Positions 42,461 to 50,145 of a stretch of DNA of 64,000 nt are shown in pieces; positions within the stretch are counted from its first letter, which is position 1; every line of letters starts with the position of its first letter. A program made the position numbers and the translations under genes. The DNA comes from Trueperaceae bacterium (lineage in GTDB: Bacteria > Deinococcota > Deinococci > Deinococcales > Trueperaceae). The stretch lies in NCBI GenBank assembly GCA_023954415.1, contig JAMLIB010000010.1, positions 1-64,000 on the forward strand, read 5' to 3'. The notes beneath the pieces are model-generated. The model saw nothing but the letters and a program-made list of their open reading frames with translations, did not search any database and was not told the origin of the DNA.

Positions 42461-42508
42461 GTGACCCCGCCACACGAGGCCTACGAGCGCCAGGAGCCAC
42501 GCGCATGA
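42461..42508 (+). CDS. Possible 15-codon leader peptide overlapping ftsX
   Basis: GTG 42461 opens a reading frame of 15 codons (VTPPHEAYERQEPRA). Its TGA (42506-42508) overlaps the ftsX start (ATG 42505 and a second ATG 42508). A -10 box ends 7 bases before this GTG. AGGAG inside the leader is 9 bases before the ftsX ATG. The peptide may serve translational coupling to ftsX. It could also simply be the 5' leader of ftsX; conservation is untested. Confidence 0.4.
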   Translation: MTPPHEAYERQEPRA

Positions 42509-43368
42509 TGTACGCGTTCCTCCAGGCGATGCGCGCCATCCGTGGCAACTGGGTCGCGAGCGTATCGACGATCACGACGATGACGCTGTCGCTGACCATC
42601 CTCGTCGGCTTCAGCCTGGTGAGCGTCAACCTCAACAACGCGCTCGCCCAGCTGCAGGGGGAGCTGGAGCTGGCCGTCTACCTAGCCGACGGCGCCAACG
42701 TGCAGCAGCTGACGACGACCGTGCGCGGCTGGCCGGAGGTTGAGCGCCTCGAGTTCGTCTCCAAGAGCCAGGCGTTGTCCGAGATGGTCGCCGACCTCCC
42801 CGCGCTCGGCCGGGCGGCGGGCCTCGTCGAGAACCCCCTACCAGACACGTTCCACCTGCGCCTCTACGACCCATCGCAGACGCAGCTGGTGCGCCTGCGG
42901 CTCGAGCAGCTCCCCGGCGTCGACGAGGTGGACGACTCCAGCGCCGCCGTGGCGACGTTCCTAGCCCTCAACGACGTCCTGCGCATCGGGGGCTCCATCC
43001 TCATCGTGGTCCTGCTCGGCGCGGCGGTGTTCGCGATCGTCAACTCGATCAGGGCGGCCATCACCGCGCGCAAGGAGGAGATAGACGTCATGCGCCTCGT
43101 GGGGGCGAGCCGCGGCTTCATCAGGGCGCCGTTCCTCCTCGAAGGGCTGCTCCTCGGGCTCATCAGCGCCGTGCTCTCGCTCGGCCTCGCCATCCCCGGC
43201 TACCAGTCGGCGGTGGCGCGCCTCTCCGAGCAGTTCGCGTTCGTGCCGTTCGTCCGCGACAGCGCGCTGCTCGCCTGGATCGCGTCGCTGCTCGCCGTGC
43301 TGGCGATCCTCGTCGGCCTCGTCGGCAGCGCCATCGCCGTGGCCCAGCACCTGCGCGAGCACGACTGA
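42505..43368 (+). CDS. ftsX: Cell division protein FtsX
   Basis: FtsX is the membrane subunit of the FtsEX complex, which transmits ATP hydrolysis to periplasmic peptidoglycan hydrolases at the septum. The protein has 287 residues. An N-terminal cytoplasmic stretch and TM1 (about 22-43) precede a periplasmic domain of about 110 residues. Three more membrane helices follow, with the typical cytoplasmic RKEEIDVMRLVGASRGFIRAPFLLEG loop. The usual upstream ftsE is missing; the preceding gene is homoisocitrate dehydrogenase. The EnvC-like gene follows 86 bases downstream with its own promoter. Confidence 0.93.
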   Translation: MMYAFLQAMRAIRGNWVASVSTITTMTLSLTILVGFSLVSVNLNNALAQLQGELELAVYLADGANVQQLTTTVRGWPEVERLEFVSKSQALSEMVADLPALGRAAGLVENPLPDTFHLRLYDPSQTQLVRLRLEQLPGVDEVDDSSAAVATFLALNDVLRIGGSILIVVLLGAAVFAIVNSIRAAITARKEEIDVMRLVGASRGFIRAPFLLEGLLLGLISAVLSLGLAIPGYQSAVARLSEQFAFVPFVRDSALLAWIASLLAVLAILVGLVGSAIAVAQHLREHD

Positions 43369-43442
43369 GCGAACGGGCCGGACCTGCCGGTCGGCGCTCG
43401 TGAGAGACCTGCGCGGGTCATCCAACGGTCACGCGCCGCTGC

Positions 43443-43448
43443 TAGACT
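43443..43448 (+). promoter_or_regulatory. -10 box of leaderless EnvC-like gene
   Basis: TAGACT lies 6 bases before GTG 43455. Confidence 0.6.
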
Positions 43449-43454
43449 TGGCCC

Positions 43455-44768
43455 GTGCCACGTGTCCGGTTGCTCCGCGCAGTGATCCTCGCCGTGGCCT
43501 TGGCGGCCGCGGCGCCGGCGCTGAACGGGGCGACGGCCCAGGTGAACCTCACCAGCCCCGAGCGCCAAGCGCTCGAGCAGGACCTCGCCAGGTACCAGGA
43601 CCTGCTCGCCGAGCGGCAGCTGCAGCTCGTGGAGATAGAGAAGGCGCTCGGGCAGACGGGCGGCCAGCTCGAGCAGCGCATCGCGGAGCGTGACGAGGTC
43701 AGCGAGCAGCTCGCGGCCAAGCGCCGCGAGCGTGAACAGCTCATAGCGCGCATCGCCGACCTGGAGGCCGAGCGTACCGCCACCGAGGCGCAGGTCGCCG
43801 CGCTCGACGAGCGCCTGGCCGCCATGGCCGAGCGCATCCAGGACCTGCTGCTGAGCCACTACAAGCAGAAGGGGCGCGACCTCACCTCGAGCCTCGCGAC
43901 CAGCAAGACCTTCCACGAGTTGCGGGTGCGCAACCACTACCTCGGCCTCCTCGCGGAGCAGGACGCCGACGTGGTCAACGAGCTCGACGCCGTCCTCGAG
44001 GAGCGGAGGGCCGCCAAGGCGCAGCTCGACGCGCAGCTCCTGGAGTTGCAGGCGGCCGAGGCGGACCTGGCGCGCGCCGAGACGGACCTGGCCGCCGCGC
44101 GCCAACGGCTCGACGAGGTGCTCGCGGAGCTGAACGCCACGCGCGCCGGCCAGCTCATCCAGCAGCAGAACCTCCTGGAGGAGCAGACGCGGCTCGAGGG
44201 CAACCTCGGCGACGTCAACCGGCAGCTCGAGCAGGAGATCGCGCGCCTCAGGGCCGAGGAGGCGGCGGCCAGGGAGGCTGCGGCGCAGTACGCGCAGGAC
44301 CGCGAGAAGCAGCTGGAGTTACAGCGCCAGGCGGACGCGGCGCGCAGTCGGGCCGACGCGCTCACCGCCCCGCTGGCGCCGCTCACGACGGGCTTCACGC
44401 GCCCGTTCGACGGCGCCACGCTCATCAGCCGCTTCGGCGAGGGGAACAACTCGTACCTGGGCATCCAGGCCCCCGCCAACAACTCGGCCGTGCGCGCCGT
44501 GCAGGCGGGCCGCGTGTCCGCCGTAACCTACCTCGGCGCGAACTTCGGCTACATGGTGGCCGTGCAGCACTCCGGCGGCCTGACGAGCGTCTACGTGAAC
44601 CTCCGCCAGCCCCTCGTCGACCTGGGCGACGGCGTCCAGCAGGGCACCGTGCTCGGCTACCTCGGCGGCGGCACCCTCACGCCCCCGGACGTCCTGCAGT
44701 TCTACGCTCAACGTGCCACCGGGTCGAACAGTCCGTTCATCGATCCGGCGCCGCTCCTGGGTTGGTGA
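43455..44768 (+). CDS. EnvC-like murein hydrolase activator with degenerate LytM domain
   Basis: The protein has 437 residues: a signal peptide (1-29), a long coiled coil (about 32-300, rich in Glu, Gln, Arg and Leu) and a C-terminal LytM/M23-like domain (about 315-437). The zinc ligands of active LytM enzymes are lost. The HxxxD motif reads YLGIQ, HxH reads YVN and the LHF position reads LQF. This is the EnvC situation, where the domain activates an amidase instead of cutting peptidoglycan. Placement after ftsX and 4 kb before an Amidase_3 gene supports an FtsX-EnvC-amidase pathway. Start: GTG 43455. Confidence 0.88.
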   Translation: MPRVRLLRAVILAVALAAAAPALNGATAQVNLTSPERQALEQDLARYQDLLAERQLQLVEIEKALGQTGGQLEQRIAERDEVSEQLAAKRREREQLIARIADLEAERTATEAQVAALDERLAAMAERIQDLLLSHYKQKGRDLTSSLATSKTFHELRVRNHYLGLLAEQDADVVNELDAVLEERRAAKAQLDAQLLELQAAEADLARAETDLAAARQRLDEVLAELNATRAGQLIQQQNLLEEQTRLEGNLGDVNRQLEQEIARLRAEEAAAREAAAQYAQDREKQLELQRQADAARSRADALTAPLAPLTTGFTRPFDGATLISRFGEGNNSYLGIQAPANNSAVRAVQAGRVSAVTYLGANFGYMVAVQHSGGLTSVYVNLRQPLVDLGDGVQQGTVLGYLGGGTLTPPDVLQFYAQRATGSNSPFIDPAPLLGW

Positions 44769-44808
44769 GCAGGTGGCGGTGCGCGGGCGCGGCAGGGGGA
44801 GCTAGCAC

Positions 44809-46923
44809 GTGATCTGCTCGGCCTGCGGCACGGCCAACCCCACCGGCATGCGCTACTGCGGCATGTGCGGCGTGCCGCTCGACCGCCAGGCCGGCGCGGC
44901 GCGCGAGCGGCGACGGGTGACCATGCTCTTCGTCGACCTCTCCGGCTTCAGCGGCCTGACGCGCGACCTCGACCCGGAGGACCTGCGGGACCTGGCCGAC
45001 GAGGTCCTCACAGTCGTGACCGGGGTCGTGGAGACGTACGACGGCTACGTCGACGCCCTCAAGGGCGACGGTCTGCTCGCCCTCTTCGGGGCGCCGCACT
45101 CCCACCCTGACGATGCGTTGCGCGCGGTGCTGGCGGGGGCCGCCAGCCTGCGGGCCATCGAGGACATCGGGAAGAGCAGGGGGCTCCCCCTCAAGGGGCG
45201 CGCTGGTGTCAACACGGGGATAGTCATCGCCGGAGCCGTCGGCTCTGGCAGGGTGCGCTCCTACACGGTGATGGGCAGCGCGGTGAACCTCGCCGCCCGG
45301 CTGGAGGAGGCCGCGGCGCCGGGCGACGTGTGGGTAGGCCCGGAGACGCACCAGGCGACGCGCCACCGGATCCACTACCAGCCGACCGGGCCCATCAGCC
45401 TGCACGGCTTCCCGGACATCACCTCGGGGCATCGGCTCGTGATGCCGAAGCAGCAGCAGACCGACCCGTACGCCCACGTCCCGTTCATAGGCCGCGCGAA
45501 CGAGCTGGAGCTCCTCAGGTCCGCTTACGACGAGGCCGTCGCGAACGAGACCGCGCGCGAGGCGTGGCTGGTCGGCGAGGCCGGCCGCGGGAAGACGCGG
45601 CTCGTGCGCGAGTTCGTCAAGCGGCTCGGGGGGCGCCCCCTGGTCTTATGGCTCGAACAGCCGGTGACGGAGGAGGCTGCGTTCGCCGGCCTCGGCCGCC
45701 AACTCTTCGCACTGCACTTGGCCGAGGATCCCCGCTCAGCCGCGCCGCGCGTGCAGCGCCTGCTCCACGGGCTCCTGCCCGGCGAACCGCGCTGGCACCA
45801 GCTCATCCTCGAGAGCCTCGACCTCGCTCAGCGCTCGACCTGGACGCGCATCGAGCGACGCAGCATCGACAGGACCAACCTGGCGTGGCGCGACCTGCTC
45901 GTCGCCCTGACGCGCAGGGGGCCAGGAACCGAGCACGGGCAGGTACGGCCGCTCGTGCTGATCGTCGAGAACGAGCCGAACGACCCGGCATCGCGCGAGT
46001 TCGTCGCCCTCGTCGCCGCGGCCGAGGCGCCCATGCTCGTGCTGCGCACCTCGCGGCGCCACGCCGTCGACCACGCCAAGGTCATCCACCTTCCGGCGCT
46101 CACCCCGGAGGAGAGCCTGAGGCTCCTCGGCGAGGTGGCCGGCCCGGCGCTACGCGTGGCCGCCGCGGGGCTGGTCGAGCAGGTCGGCGGGGTCCCGGCG
46201 TTCGTGCTAGAGCTTGGCAGGGCACTATCCGTGGCCTCGCTCGACTCGTTCCCCGGCTCGCTGGCCTCGCTCCTGCAAGCGCGCATCGACCTGATCGACG
46301 CCCCCTACCGTCGGCTGCTCGCTCACGCCGCGCTCGCCGGCGAGGTCGTGTGGGAGGGCCTGCTGCGCGAGCTGGCCGGCCCGGCCGTCTCCGGCGACGT
46401 CGAGGTGCTGCTGCGCGAGAAGATGCTCGTCGCCCAGACGGGCTCGTCCATCCCGGACGAGCTCGAGTACCGCTTCCAGAGCGAGTTCCTGCGTAACGGT
46501 CTTCTGCGCATGATCCCGTTCTCGGAGCGGCCGGTGCTCCACTTGCGGATCGCGACCTGGCTCGAGCGCCACGCGCCCTTGAGCTTCTCCGCCATGACCG
46601 CCGAGCACTTCTCCTTGGGCGGGGCACCCGACGCCGCCTACGCCCACTACCTCACCGCCGCCGACCTCGCCACGGCGCAGGACGACTCAGCGCGCGCGTT
46701 CGAGCTCTTCGAGCGCCTGCTCGGCCTCCCGATCCCCCCGGAGCTCCGAACGGAAGGCGCCTTGGCCCTGACCCAGGCGGCCCTGAGCCTCGGAGCGGGC
46801 GAGCGGGCGCGGTCCGCGTTCGAGCGGGCCGAGAGCCTCCTCGACGGCTGCGCGCCCGAGGCGCGCCGCGAGCTCGGCAGGGTGCTCGAACAGCTCGGGC
46901 ACGACCTCGCGCTGCTGACGTAG
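44809..46923 (+). CDS. Zinc-ribbon adenylate/guanylate cyclase fused to an AAA-type ATPase
   Basis: The protein has 704 residues. Residues 1-24 form a zinc ribbon (CSACGTANPTGMRYCGMCG). A class III cyclase domain spans about 35-215, with metal-binding Asp in MLFVDLSGFS and KGDGLLALFGAP and the VMGSAVNLAARLEEA block. An ATPase module begins FIGRANELELL, with P-loop VGEAGRGKTRL near residue 260. A short helical C-terminus remains where relatives carry many TPRs, so the protein is shorter than usual. The nucleotide product and the signal are unknown. Start: GTG 44809 behind GGGGGAG. It follows the EnvC-like gene by 40 bases and may be read through from it. Confidence 0.88.
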   Translation: MICSACGTANPTGMRYCGMCGVPLDRQAGAARERRRVTMLFVDLSGFSGLTRDLDPEDLRDLADEVLTVVTGVVETYDGYVDALKGDGLLALFGAPHSHPDDALRAVLAGAASLRAIEDIGKSRGLPLKGRAGVNTGIVIAGAVGSGRVRSYTVMGSAVNLAARLEEAAAPGDVWVGPETHQATRHRIHYQPTGPISLHGFPDITSGHRLVMPKQQQTDPYAHVPFIGRANELELLRSAYDEAVANETAREAWLVGEAGRGKTRLVREFVKRLGGRPLVLWLEQPVTEEAAFAGLGRQLFALHLAEDPRSAAPRVQRLLHGLLPGEPRWHQLILESLDLAQRSTWTRIERRSIDRTNLAWRDLLVALTRRGPGTEHGQVRPLVLIVENEPNDPASREFVALVAAAEAPMLVLRTSRRHAVDHAKVIHLPALTPEESLRLLGEVAGPALRVAAAGLVEQVGGVPAFVLELGRALSVASLDSFPGSLASLLQARIDLIDAPYRRLLAHAALAGEVVWEGLLRELAGPAVSGDVEVLLREKMLVAQTGSSIPDELEYRFQSEFLRNGLLRMIPFSERPVLHLRIATWLERHAPLSFSAMTAEHFSLGGAPDAAYAHYLTAADLATAQDDSARAFELFERLLGLPIPPELRTEGALALTQAALSLGAGERARSAFERAESLLDGCAPEARRELGRVLEQLGHDLALLT

Positions 46924-46988
46924 CCCCCGACCGGGGAGGCCGGGCGTCGCCGAGGCCACGAGCGCCCTCGCCGGCCACGGCCGGCCCG

Positions 46989-47888
46989 CTACCCGACCTT
47001 GCGACCGAAGACGGCGAACCAGGGCTTGAAGCTGGGCTCGAGCTCGACGAGCTTGCGCGCGAGCTCCCCCCTGTCGGCTGGCGGGAGGGCGGAGCGCAGC
47101 TCGGTCAGGTAGTCCCAACCGCGGCGTTCGGAGAGGTCGAGCGCCCGCTCCGCGAACACGCCCTGGTACCAGAGGAGCCGCTCCCAGCCGGCCCTGTTGC
47201 GCGGGTACTCGAAGGCGGCCAGGTCGCCAGCCTCGGCGCTCGTGCCGGCCACCTGCCAGCGCGACCACTCCGTCAGGCGCAGCAAGGCGTTGCGTTGGCC
47301 GGTGGCCCGCAACGCCTGCACGAAGAGGTAGGTGGCGTTCAGCTCGTCGAGCCACTTGAGGCGCGTGCGCAGACCGCTCAGGTTGGCAACGGCATGACCC
47401 CACTCGTGCCCCACCATCAGGTCGATGAACTCGCCGAGCTGCGCCGGCGCGCTCACGCCCGCGCGCGCCGCGGCGAGCATGGCGCCGTCGAACCGCTGCA
47501 GCAGGCGCGGTTGGTGATCTGCCGCCACGATCACGTTCGCCTGCCGGCCGCCGACGGCGGTGCGGGCGAAGGGCAGGCCGTACGGGTAGCGCGCGAGCTT
47601 GTACCAGTCGCGCGAGTCGACGACGAGCAGGGTCACGTCCGCCTCCGATCGCAAAGCGGCGCGGGCCGCCTCATGGAGCGGGCGCAGGAACGCCTGGATC
47701 TGCCCCGCCCGCCGCCGCGCGCCCGCCGAATGGCGGGCCGGCAGCACGTCGTCTCGCAGCGGCCTGAGGTACAAGCCGACCAGAGCGGCCGCCGGGTTGG
47801 CGGGCGCGCTCGCCTGAGCGGCCGGGGGACGCCCGGCGGCCCCGCCGCTCGGCCGCCCGTCCTGCTTGGCTCGTCTGGGGTTGGGCAT
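46989..47888 (-). CDS. Putative zinc metalloprotein with HEWGH motif
   Basis: The protein of 299 residues has no family I can name. Residues 161-165 read HEWGH, an HExxH zinc motif. WLDELNA places Glu182 17 residues later, where gluzincin peptidases carry the third ligand. The N-terminal 35 residues are low-complexity and there is no clear signal peptide, so it may act in the cytoplasm. Start: ATG 47888, 9 bases after a TAGACT -10 box. It is divergent from the YhcB-like gene. Peptidase activity is inferred from the motif only. Confidence 0.65.
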   Translation of the reverse strand: MPNPRRAKQDGRPSGGAAGRPPAAQASAPANPAAALVGLYLRPLRDDVLPARHSAGARRRAGQIQAFLRPLHEAARAALRSEADVTLLVVDSRDWYKLARYPYGLPFARTAVGGRQANVIVAADHQPRLLQRFDGAMLAAARAGVSAPAQLGEFIDLMVGHEWGHAVANLSGLRTRLKWLDELNATYLFVQALRATGQRNALLRLTEWSRWQVAGTSAEAGDLAAFEYPRNRAGWERLLWYQGVFAERALDLSERRGWDYLTELRSALPPADRGELARKLVELEPSFKPWFAVFGRKVG

Positions 47889-47897
47889 GCTGGCCGC

Positions 47898-47903
47898 AGT
47901 CTA
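47898..47903 (-). promoter_or_regulatory. -10 box of the HEWGH gene
   Basis: TAGACT on the minus strand lies 9 bases before ATG 47888. Confidence 0.45.
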
Positions 47904-47926
47904 GGGGAAGTCGGCCTGGGCCTTGC

Positions 47927-47932
47927 TATGCT
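47927..47932 (+). promoter_or_regulatory. -10 box of leaderless yhcB-like gene
   Basis: TATGCT lies 7 bases before ATG 47940. Confidence 0.55.
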
Positions 47933-47939
47933 CGGCGGC

Positions 47940-48299
47940 ATGAGCGCCTGGTTATGGGCCGTGATCGCCTTCCTCGTCGGCATCGGAGCCGGGTGGGGGC
48001 TCTCGACCTACTTGCGCGGCAGGCAGCCGAGCGAGCAGCGGCTACGGCGCCTCCAGGCGGTCCTCGACCGCTTCCAGGGCGAGGTGGCGCAGCACTTCCA
48101 GGAGTCCGGCGAGCTGATCACGCGCCTGCGCACGGACGTGGAGTCGCTCTACCACCACCTCGAGAGCGGGGCCGCCCGGCTCACGACGGAGGACGCCACC
48201 CAGGCGCGCCTGCGTCAGCTCGAGGAGACCGCGGCGACGCAGTCGGGGCCCTGCGCCGCCGACCGGCCCGGCGCAGCCGACCGGCCCGGCGACCGCTAG
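47940..48299 (+). CDS. YhcB/ZapG-like (DUF1043) membrane protein
   Basis: The 119-residue protein has one N-terminal membrane helix (about 4-22, with a GIGAGWGLSTYL glycine pattern) followed by a coiled coil. The block VAQHFQESGELITRLRTDVESLYHHLESGAARL lines up with the conserved HFxxSAELLxxMxxDYRxLYxHM region of E. coli YhcB. YhcB (ZapG) is an inner-membrane protein tied to division and envelope growth. The C-terminus ends with two copies of ADRPG, in a repeat-rich stretch of DNA. ATG 47940 stands 7 bases after TATGCT. The comparison is from memory and needs a profile search. Confidence 0.65.
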   Translation: MSAWLWAVIAFLVGIGAGWGLSTYLRGRQPSEQRLRRLQAVLDRFQGEVAQHFQESGELITRLRTDVESLYHHLESGAARLTTEDATQARLRQLEETAATQSGPCAADRPGAADRPGDR

Positions 48300-48301
48300 C
48301 C

Positions 48302-48361
48302 GCCGAACGCGGCGCGGCGGCCGAACGCGGCCCGAGTGCCGAACGCGGGCGCGCCCGCGTT
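48302..48361. repeat. GCCGAACGCGG direct repeats ending in a 20-bp palindrome
   Basis: Three near-identical copies of GCCGAACGCGG begin near 48303, 48320 and 48339. The last runs into a perfect palindrome (48342-48361, AACGCGGGCG and its complement), which could terminate the yhcB-like transcript. The rest of the 286-base gap up to 48585 holds nothing I recognise except the amidase promoter. Confidence 0.6.
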
Positions 48362-48569
48362 CACCGGTCGCGACCTCGGCGCTCTGGCGCGCCATTGCCG
48401 ACCCCGCGCGCGGCCACGGACGCCAGGGCGGCCGGCGACCCGGCGCTCTGCCGGCGCCGGCCGCTCGTCACGGAATGGTCCGACCAACTCGCGACAGAAG
48501 GCCTGTCGTAAGGCAGGGAAACCCGCTGCAGGGCGAATTTCCTCATGTTTCGACCCCCGGGGTGCGTGA

Positions 48570-48575
48570 TAGACT
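48570..48575 (+). promoter_or_regulatory. -10 box of the amidase gene
   Basis: TAGACT, preceded by TGA as an extended -10, lies 10 bases before GTG 48586. Confidence 0.5.
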
Positions 48576-48585
48576 CCCCGGCGAC

Positions 48586-50145
48586 GTGAAGCGGCTGCTC
48601 CTCATCCTCACCCTGCTGTTGACCTGCGTAACGGCCGCCGCTCAGGAACGGCACAACTACCTTGCGGTCAACGGTACCGTCGTCGACGCCGCCGGCCCCT
48701 ACTACTTCATGAAGCAGGGCGACAGTTCCAACGCCTTCGTGCGGGCCCAGCCCATCGCCGAGGCGATGAAGCTCACGGTCGACTACGTCGCCGACGAGAA
48801 AGTCCTCGTGTTCTCCGACGGGTTCAGGACGGCGCGCTTCAAGGCGACGTCCGACGTCCAGGCCGGCTTGGTCAAGGCGGCCGGCACCGTCGCCCTCTCC
48901 CCTGCCCTGGGTGGTCAGACCACTTTGGCGAGCCCCATGGCCATCCTCGTCGACGGGGTCGCGTACGTCGCCGTCACGCCGCTCGTCACGGCCTTCGAGG
49001 GCGAGAGCACGTGGAACGCCGAGCGCCAGGTGCTCACGATAGACACGGCCGACCGCCTCGGCTACACGCTCGCCCGGGCGCGGACCGGCATCACGGACGG
49101 CGTCTCGCGCGTCGCCATCGACATCCCGGAGAACGCCGACTACCAGGTGGCCGCGGGGGGCAAGGCCCTCGTCATCGTCCTCCCTGGCGCGCGCTCCGAA
49201 GCGTACGAGGTGACGGTCGACGACGCCAACCTGAGCGCGCTCAGCGTCACGAACGAGGCCGGTCGCGTCACGATCGGCGTGCACACCAAGTTCGACCTCG
49301 CAGCGTCGGGCACCGGCTTCCGCGTCGGCATCGTGCCGAAGGCCACCGGCCGCACCCTCTACGTCGACTTCGCCCCGAGCGTGGCCGGCGCGGCCGTGGC
49401 GGCGCTGCAGGCGGTCGCCGCGCCGGCCGAGACACCCGTGCCGGCTTTGCAGACCGTTCCCGAGCAGCGGCAGGTAGTCGTGATAGACGCCGGTCACGGG
49501 GGCCACGACCCGGGCGCGACCGGTTACGCCGTGGAGAAGAACGTGGTGCTCTCCGTGGCCCTGCAACTCAAGCGGCTGCTGGAGGCCGAGGGGGTCGAGG
49601 TCATCCTCACCAGGGGCGACGACACGTTCCTGACCTTGCAGCAGCGCTCGCTCTTCGCCGCTCCGGAGCGCAACCTGTTCGTCTCGATCCACGCGAACTC
49701 CGCCTCCAACGCCTCGGCCGCCGGGATCGAGACCTGGGTGTTCGGCGAGCCGCTCAACCCATCGCTCATTGACAGGGCCATCGAGGAGAACGGCGGCGGC
49801 ACCGAGGGCCAGGCCCTCACGGAGGAGGCGCGCGCCAGCGCCCGCGACCTGGCGGCCGACATCCTGCGCGAGGCCCAGCTCAACTACTCGCTCACCCTGG
49901 CCGAGACCGTGCAGCGCAACCTGATAGACGCGACCGGCGCGCGCGATCGCGGCGTCAGGGCCAACCTCTTCTACGTGATCCGCACCGCCCGCATCCCGGC
50001 CATCCTCGTGGAGCTCGGCTTCGTCAGCAACCCGGAGGAGGGGCGTGACCTCGCCTCCTCGAGCTACCAGGGCAAACTGGCCCAAGCGTTGGCCGACGGC
50101 CTGCTGGAGTTCCTCCACGGCGGCGGCCTGGTCGCGAGGCGCTGA
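48586..50145 (+). CDS. N-acetylmuramoyl-L-alanine amidase (AMIN + Amidase_3)
   Basis: This periplasmic hydrolase splits the bond between muramic acid and the peptide stem. The protein has 519 residues. A signal peptide (KRLLLILTLLLTCVTAAAQ) is followed by a copper-amine-oxidase-N-like domain (about 25-150). An AMIN domain (about 160-262) comes next, then the Amidase_3 domain (about 296-519). The zinc site is DAGHGGHDPG (His), AVEKNVV (Glu) and SIHANS (His), and the catalytic Glu lies in VELGFVSNPEE. An insert of about 50 residues after ETWVFGE, containing the helix EEARASARDLAADIL, is at the place where regulated AmiA/B/C amidases carry a blocking helix. Start: GTG 48586. Confidence 0.93.
   Translation: MKRLLLILTLLLTCVTAAAQERHNYLAVNGTVVDAAGPYYFMKQGDSSNAFVRAQPIAEAMKLTVDYVADEKVLVFSDGFRTARFKATSDVQAGLVKAAGTVALSPALGGQTTLASPMAILVDGVAYVAVTPLVTAFEGESTWNAERQVLTIDTADRLGYTLARARTGITDGVSRVAIDIPENADYQVAAGGKALVIVLPGARSEAYEVTVDDANLSALSVTNEAGRVTIGVHTKFDLAASGTGFRVGIVPKATGRTLYVDFAPSVAGAAVAALQAVAAPAETPVPALQTVPEQRQVVVIDAGHGGHDPGATGYAVEKNVVLSVALQLKRLLEAEGVEVILTRGDDTFLTLQQRSLFAAPERNLFVSIHANSASNASAAGIETWVFGEPLNPSLIDRAIEENGGGTEGQALTEEARASARDLAADILREAQLNYSLTLAETVQRNLIDATGARDRGVRANLFYVIRTARIPAILVELGFVSNPEEGRDLASSSYQGKLAQALADGLLEFLHGGGLVARR

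Follow-up and report, generated by a model that had tools for sequence, protein, structure and literature searches.

Does a bacterium of the phylum Deinococcota split its septum with the FtsEX-EnvC-AmiA/AmiB circuit known from Escherichia coli? The question is raised by a gene cluster at positions 42505–50145 of a 64,000-nucleotide stretch of Trueperaceae DNA (the window, on contig 10 of a genome assembled to 3.2 Mb over 30 contigs and 96% complete). Within it lie ftsX, a gene for an EnvC-like protein with a degenerate LytM domain, and a gene for a secreted amidase carrying an insert. Because of homology, lost LytM ligands, the amidase insert, and phylum-wide synteny, it is very probable, by analogy, that Trueperaceae use a mechanism of the E. 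coli type. All the genes picked out here by an earlier sequence-only reading (ftsX, the EnvC-like, YhcB-like, and Amidase_3 genes, and the cyclase-ATPase and HEWGH genes embedded among them) are present in their places, with two starts corrected. The features that carry the argument are these:

42505..43368, + strand: ftsX, membrane subunit of FtsEX (FtsX_ECD and FtsX domains over cut-off)
43455..44768, + strand: predicted EnvC-like periplasmic activator with signal peptide, coiled-coil hairpin, and degenerate LytM (profile, AlphaFold model, and fold matches)
44301..44366, + strand: helix preceding LytM, a candidate restraining arm (model helix H256-277)
44391..44765, + strand: degenerate LytM domain (active-site residues absent; fold match to 8c0j_B)
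48586..50145, + strand: secreted N-acetylmuramoyl-L-alanine amidase (Amidase_3, 169 bits; AmiA/AmiB profile matches)
49741..49890, + strand: putative amidase regulatory insert, with blocking-helix EN motif and interaction-helix segment (Glu codon 49786-49788)

Phylum-wide profile counts cover 111 Deinococcota genomes in five families, namely f1, taken to be the Trueperaceae, and four further families of the same order (f2 to f5). FtsX_ECD is matched in 107 of these genomes, as is the EnvC profile. Both are matched in 106 genomes. In 104 of these, spread over the five families, envC comes directly after ftsX in the same orientation, no more than 1.31 kb from the match to the ectodomain; the remaining two have the matches on separate contigs. 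In one further genome, G047, the contig stops just past ftsX. Since the order is found in 104 of 106 genomes across five families, it exceeds chance, and the synteny check in relatives proposed by the sequence-only reading thus shows the order to be kept. The ftsX locus was read in detail in the window and in 40 of the 57 relatives with a match (n = 41).

A profile built from 40 EnvC-like relatives matches solved EnvC chains end to end—8i6o_E (expect value, E, 3e-25), 8hd0_E, and 6tpi_A, over a range of E 3e-25 to 4e-20—and these chains, which come from FtsEX complexes (8i6o, 8hd0) and from EnvC–FtsX (6tpi), rank above M23 peptidases in this search. An AlphaFold model of the window protein, made from 5 sequences (mean predicted local distance difference test, pLDDT, 83.1; predicted template-modelling score, pTM, 0.49), shows a pair of long helices, a third that is shorter, and a beta domain, and its top Foldseek matches are the Vibrio cholerae FtsE/FtsX/EnvC complex and FtsX-bound EnvC. 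VIA-align superimposes the model on the LytM domain of EnvC from a crystal with AmiB (8c0j_B) with Z 16.5 over 122 residues at a root-mean-square deviation of 2.7, a score with which other LytM domains tie. The helix that precedes LytM is present in the model (H256-277) and may act as a restraining arm.

The LytM domain (Peptidase_M23, 47.7 bits) had been described as lacking its zinc ligands, and the residues bear this out: the HxxxD, YxH, and HxH positions read Y, Q, N, V, and Q, so that none of the five catalytic or ligand positions keeps its residue. Among the aligned EnvC-like proteins, the HxxxD pair and the YxH histidine are absent in 40/40, and one HxH histidine is kept in 3/40. The window genome holds seven M23 domains, five with full ligand sets. 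A second M23 protein of this genome (L161, G000:C8:162327-162536) is partly degenerate, with HxH alone lost, and is a candidate further amidase activator.

The amidase was listed with a frame starting at 48475; its start was moved to the GTG at 48586 because this restores the signal peptide. GHGG, EK, SIHA, and ELGF can be read in its catalytic domain, which aligns with AmiA (8c2o, E 2e-28) and AmiB (8c0j, E 2e-27) straight across the insert; with several insert-less amidases, the alignment falls into two pieces. In AmiA, the blocking helix is reported to carry the zinc latch, Glu167, and EnvC to bind a face formed by Leu184, Leu185, Val188, Leu189, and Leu192 on an interaction helix running from Leu184 to Leu192 (PMC10268282). 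The comparison set comprised 49 distinct amidase domains (50 rows, the window gene being entered twice), a non-random sample made up mostly of best or longest matches, from which locus L149 was dropped for want of an alignable match. An E-N motif, nearly always ENGGG, occurs in 42 of the 49 and in all five families (f1 26/27, f2 3/5, f3 5/5, f4 4/5, and f5 4/7). From this glutamate to a conserved serine, the spacing is 34 residues in 37 of the 42 insert-bearing domains and likewise 34 in AmiA, as counted via the alignment and the published numbering. The sequence-only reading had put the insert at the site of the inhibitory helix; it agrees with AmiA in place, glutamate, and length, and the aligned positions point to both a zinc-latch glutamate and an interaction helix. 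Three Amidase_3 matches occur in the window genome, and the ENGGG insert was seen in the window gene alone; L150 is without it, and L149 is the unalignable one.

The AMIN label once given to this amidase is not confirmed, as no AMIN match over cut-off was found in the window protein. Across the eight amidases scanned, a Cu_amine_oxidN1-like stretch appears in all and AMIN in one (E 0.18); with isolated middle regions, AMIN appears in 2/6 (best E 0.0089), the window protein not among them, and no amidase stood among the matches listed by a PDB profile search. An AMIN domain is therefore not established by these searches.

FtsX itself scores 59 bits against PF18075 (FtsX_ECD; cut-off 23.5) and 50 bits against PF02687 (cut-off 25.5), and its best solved relatives are the FtsX chains of FtsEX complexes (8ymc/8hd0, E 3e-25). 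As had been remarked, ftsE is absent from the cluster; the genome search then suggested located it on another contig (C11:68135-68773), which rules out its loss from the genome. The C11 protein is the sole one of 109 matches above the TIGR02673 cut-off (265.3 vs 264.85 bits; the next, at 202.8, is 62 bits lower), and it is the best match of an FtsE encoded beside ftsX in f5 (58% identity; 283.5 bits vs 149.2 for the runner-up). In f2 and f5, ftsE lies directly 5′ of ftsX and the run ftsE-ftsX-envC is together (5/5 loci). In f3 and f4, it runs convergently on the opposite strand, some 0.6 kb downstream of envC, in seven of nine testable loci (L060, L061, L064, L065, L066, L072, and L074); L069 and L073 have no ftsE within 18 kb, and L067 and L071 were excluded as too short. 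None of 25 f1 loci has ftsE beside ftsX. Given the convergent f3 and f4 arrangement, ftsE and ftsX, usually a pair, have come apart in more than one way inside a single order.

Like the E. coli system, that of Trueperaceae combines an FtsX extracellular domain and a coiled-coil EnvC protein whose LytM is dead with an Amidase_3 enzyme bearing a predicted blocking-helix glutamate, an interaction helix, and AmiA's 34-residue E-to-S spacing. The genes, their phylum-wide order, the residues, the folds, the loss of the LytM active site, and the insert with its conserved glutamate are direct observations; binding, gating by adenosine triphosphate (ATP), and the place and time of action are carried over from E. 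coli work. On that analogy, FtsX, together with FtsE supplied from the other contig, would hold the periplasmic EnvC-like coiled coil, and ATP use by FtsE would move the coiled coil and free the groove of the enzymatically dead LytM domain. The freed groove could then take the interaction helix of the secreted amidase, a capture that would pull the blocking helix and its zinc-binding glutamate out of the active site. Cutting of septal peptidoglycan would thereby be confined to the place and time of FtsEX activity.

Several observations weigh against this account. Taken alone, the window EnvC-like sequence matches solved EnvC weakly (E 0.003–0.02), and it misses the cut-off of the NCBIfam EnvC equivalog NF008644 (41.2 vs 270 bits), hence the name EnvC-like rather than EnvC. 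The amidase misses the NCBIfam AmiA/B cut-offs, and FtsX those of FtsX_Gpos (216 vs 225) and FtsX_Gneg (199.3 vs 255); the latter models are lineage-specific, so the misses bear on subtype. The Deinococcota helix is hydrophobic where AmiA makes its contacts, but it is rich in Ala, not in Leu, and the position of the AmiA ligand Asp135 is Asn in the window amidase (HAN). Gene linkage is a further weak point. A downstream gene was scored as in place in f1 on a match of more than 30 bits to the window protein, a threshold that diverged copies may escape, at the 17 loci whose sequence reaches 8 kb or more downstream. In 11/17, the amidase and envC are about 8 kb apart or less, and in the other 6/17 they are unlinked; zapG is in place in 10/17. 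In f2 to f5, amidase and envC are unlinked. Linkage of amidase and ZapG to ftsX thus holds in Trueperaceae only, and since the isocitrate/isopropylmalate dehydrogenase gene upstream of ftsX is equally well conserved, much of it is general family synteny. Trueperaceae differ from E. coli in having envC directly after ftsX and ftsE elsewhere, a Cu_amine_oxidN1-like amidase N-terminus with AMIN unconfirmed, and low sequence identity. The parallel with FtsEX-EnvC-AmiA/B drawn by the sequence-only reading accordingly stands as regards homology, LytM loss, the insert, and ftsX-envC synteny, while its linkage of amidase and ZapG is weaker than was implied.

Between these genes and the amidase lies the YhcB-like gene:

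about 47940..48299, + strand: zapG/yhcB homologue, one membrane helix plus coiled coil (PF06295, 48.4 bits)

The open-frame list had it inside a longer frame, and an upstream start at 47928 is also possible. The call as YhcB/ZapG-like was sound, PF06295 (DUF1043) being matched above its cut-off of 33.5, and the protein shares with ZapG/YhcB an N-terminal membrane helix and the HF..(T/S) and Y.HL motifs. It differs in its host outside the gammaproteobacteria, its neighbourhood, and its score below the NCBIfam ZapG equivalog cut-off (NF008672, 34.8 vs 150). ZapG is matched in 18 of the 111 genomes, all of them Trueperaceae and 17 above the PF06295 cut-off, and no non-f1 genome among the 111 has a PF06295 match; in 14 named control genomes, the match is in E. 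coli only. Because the non-f1 genomes are without a match and the matches have a specific motif in common, chance coiled-coil similarity was rejected. A profile of the Trueperaceae alignment finds as its best solved relative 6un9 (E 9e-6), listed as an uncharacterised protein, which we take to be the Haemophilus ducreyi YhcB structure. A peptide-pattern scan (two short patterns, one genome per species), narrow and carrying no information on absence, gave 15 ZapG loci: six in Trueperaceae or the Thermus/Deinococcus group, five in gammaproteobacteria, and four in 'Deltaproteobacteria' or Candidatus Binatia. Best-segment identity of the query is 36%–53% to the non-Deinococcota loci, about equal to the 32%–48% within Trueperaceae; some 70 residues can be aligned, a length that would give a ZapG tree little power. 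In the four Binatia or 'Deltaproteobacteria' metagenome-assembled genomes (MAGs), zapG (L128, L130, L133, and L134, around 8001 in each) does not adjoin ftsX or envC. ZapG has been stated in print to be 'absent in other bacterial genomes', that is, known only from gammaproteobacteria, and none of the titles or abstract openings listed by searches of one open-access library reports it in Deinococcota.

There is no agreement on what ZapG does in E. coli: YhcB has been connected by two-hybrid work with FtsI and FtsQ and so with the divisome (PMC8163987), and elsewhere it is reported to bind and sequester AccA, damping fatty-acid synthesis (PMC12977641). The Trueperaceae protein is probably a membrane-anchored accessory of division or the envelope, and its gene position only suggests a direct role in the splitting circuit. 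That it is instead an envelope-lipid regulator working through AccA sequestration, as for E. coli YhcB, and merely located in the cluster has a slightly less than even chance; this alternative touches the ZapG part alone. The AccA report, the equal conservation of a metabolic neighbour gene, and the separation of zapG from ftsX and envC in the Binatia and delta MAGs agree with it, whereas the two-hybrid links to FtsI and FtsQ do not, nor does the fact that 15 of the 18 Deinococcota genomes have zapG and either ftsX or an insert-bearing amidase within 7 kb of each other on one contig (the gene lies away from both in G006, G014, and G022, the match in G014 being weak). Either way, the Trueperaceae and Binatia homologues offer outgroups for a protein whose E. 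coli function is contested.

For the circuit itself, it is unlikely that the EnvC-like protein, though it forms a conserved pair with FtsX, regulates some other hydrolase, such as an active M23 or NlpC/P60 enzyme, and leaves the amidase to another LytM factor. FtsEX partners do vary between phyla (PcsB, CwlO, and RipC), the partly degenerate M23 protein at C8:162327 is encoded in the same genome, and the amidase is unlinked to envC in f2 to f5; against this, the Deinococcota insert equals the EnvC-bound segment of AmiA and AmiB in place, glutamate, and length, and in Trueperaceae the amidase stays near envC at most of the loci counted. There is next to no chance that the EnvC-like LytM, for all its intact fold (Z about 16), is still an active peptidase using unusual residues, a candidate rejected since every active-site position is replaced in the window and the HxxxD pair and YxH histidine occur in 0/40.

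An FtsEX–EnvC–amidase circuit in Trueperaceae was described by the sequence-only reading as not commonly reported for Deinococcota, and this proved half right, the circuit having been foreshadowed in print. In D. radiodurans, ftsE, ftsX, and an M23 gene (KDR_1549) lie side by side, the order of f2 and f5, and the M23 proteins are called peptidoglycan hydrolases (PMC11219805, 2024), a view that contrasts with the missing active site of the ftsX-linked M23 proteins examined here (40/40). For D. indicus, a regulatory domain with blocking and interaction helices was predicted in Ami1, and an amidase/EnvC circuit was proposed for Ami1/Ami2 and EnvC (PMC10964502, 2024); unlike the dead LytM of Trueperaceae, that EnvC (WP_229843994) is reported with conserved metal-binding sites, and it may not be the ftsX-linked gene. 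Beyond these two papers, the present analysis adds that the gene order extends through the phylum, that the LytM active site has been lost uniformly, that the latch motif is conserved, that ftsE stands apart in Trueperaceae, and that ZapG occurs outside the gammaproteobacteria. These results suggest that FtsEX–EnvC–amidase control is the standard means of septum splitting across a distant phylum, and thus probably no proteobacterial invention, and that for the Deinococcus M23 gene beside ftsEX a role as activator rather than hydrolase is worth considering.

Two further genes are embedded in the cluster:

44809..46923, + strand: class III nucleotide cyclase plus AAA_16 ATPase (Guanylate_cyc 67.3 bits, AAA_16 43.6 bits)
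46989..47888, − strand: HEWGH protein with predicted gluzincin-like fold (weak model)

The cyclase/AAA_16 gene starts 40 nucleotides past envC and follows envC in 18 of 23 f1 loci (those with at least 1.9 kb downstream). By eye, its catalytic motifs look intact, and its position next to envC hints at a possible link between second-messenger signalling and cell separation. It is quite unlikely that ZapG and this cyclase/ATPase function within the cell-separation circuit of Trueperaceae, ZapG coupling FtsEX-EnvC-amidase splitting to the division complex of the inner membrane and the cyclase coupling it to second-messenger signalling. If that were so, ZapG would be a division factor well beyond the gammaproteobacteria, and the E. 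coli lipopolysaccharide or fatty-acid phenotypes would be secondary.

TANNNT boxes at 43443-43448, 47898-47903, 47927-47932, and 48570-48575 stand 12–16 nucleotides 5′ of the starts of envC, the HEWGH gene (− strand), zapG, and the amidase. They would fit leaderless promoters, which is suggestive only; across the window, 43 of 3146 RTG triplets have such a box between −14 and −5, a chance rate that covers that interval only. One long operon across the cluster is doubtful, given these boxes before several genes and the HEWGH gene on the opposite strand.

The HEWGH protein has no Pfam or other family match above cut-off. Its model is weak (pLDDT 65.4, pTM 0.69), and with Foldseek alone nothing is significant (best E 0.28); by alignment, the model resembles M1 aminopeptidases and thermolysin at Z 8–11 (maximum 10.9), consistent with a gluzincin-like fold. 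HExxH is kept in 10 of 16 alignment rows and lost in six (15 distinct loci, one entered twice), and several Trueperaceae lineages retain the protein though the motif is gone.

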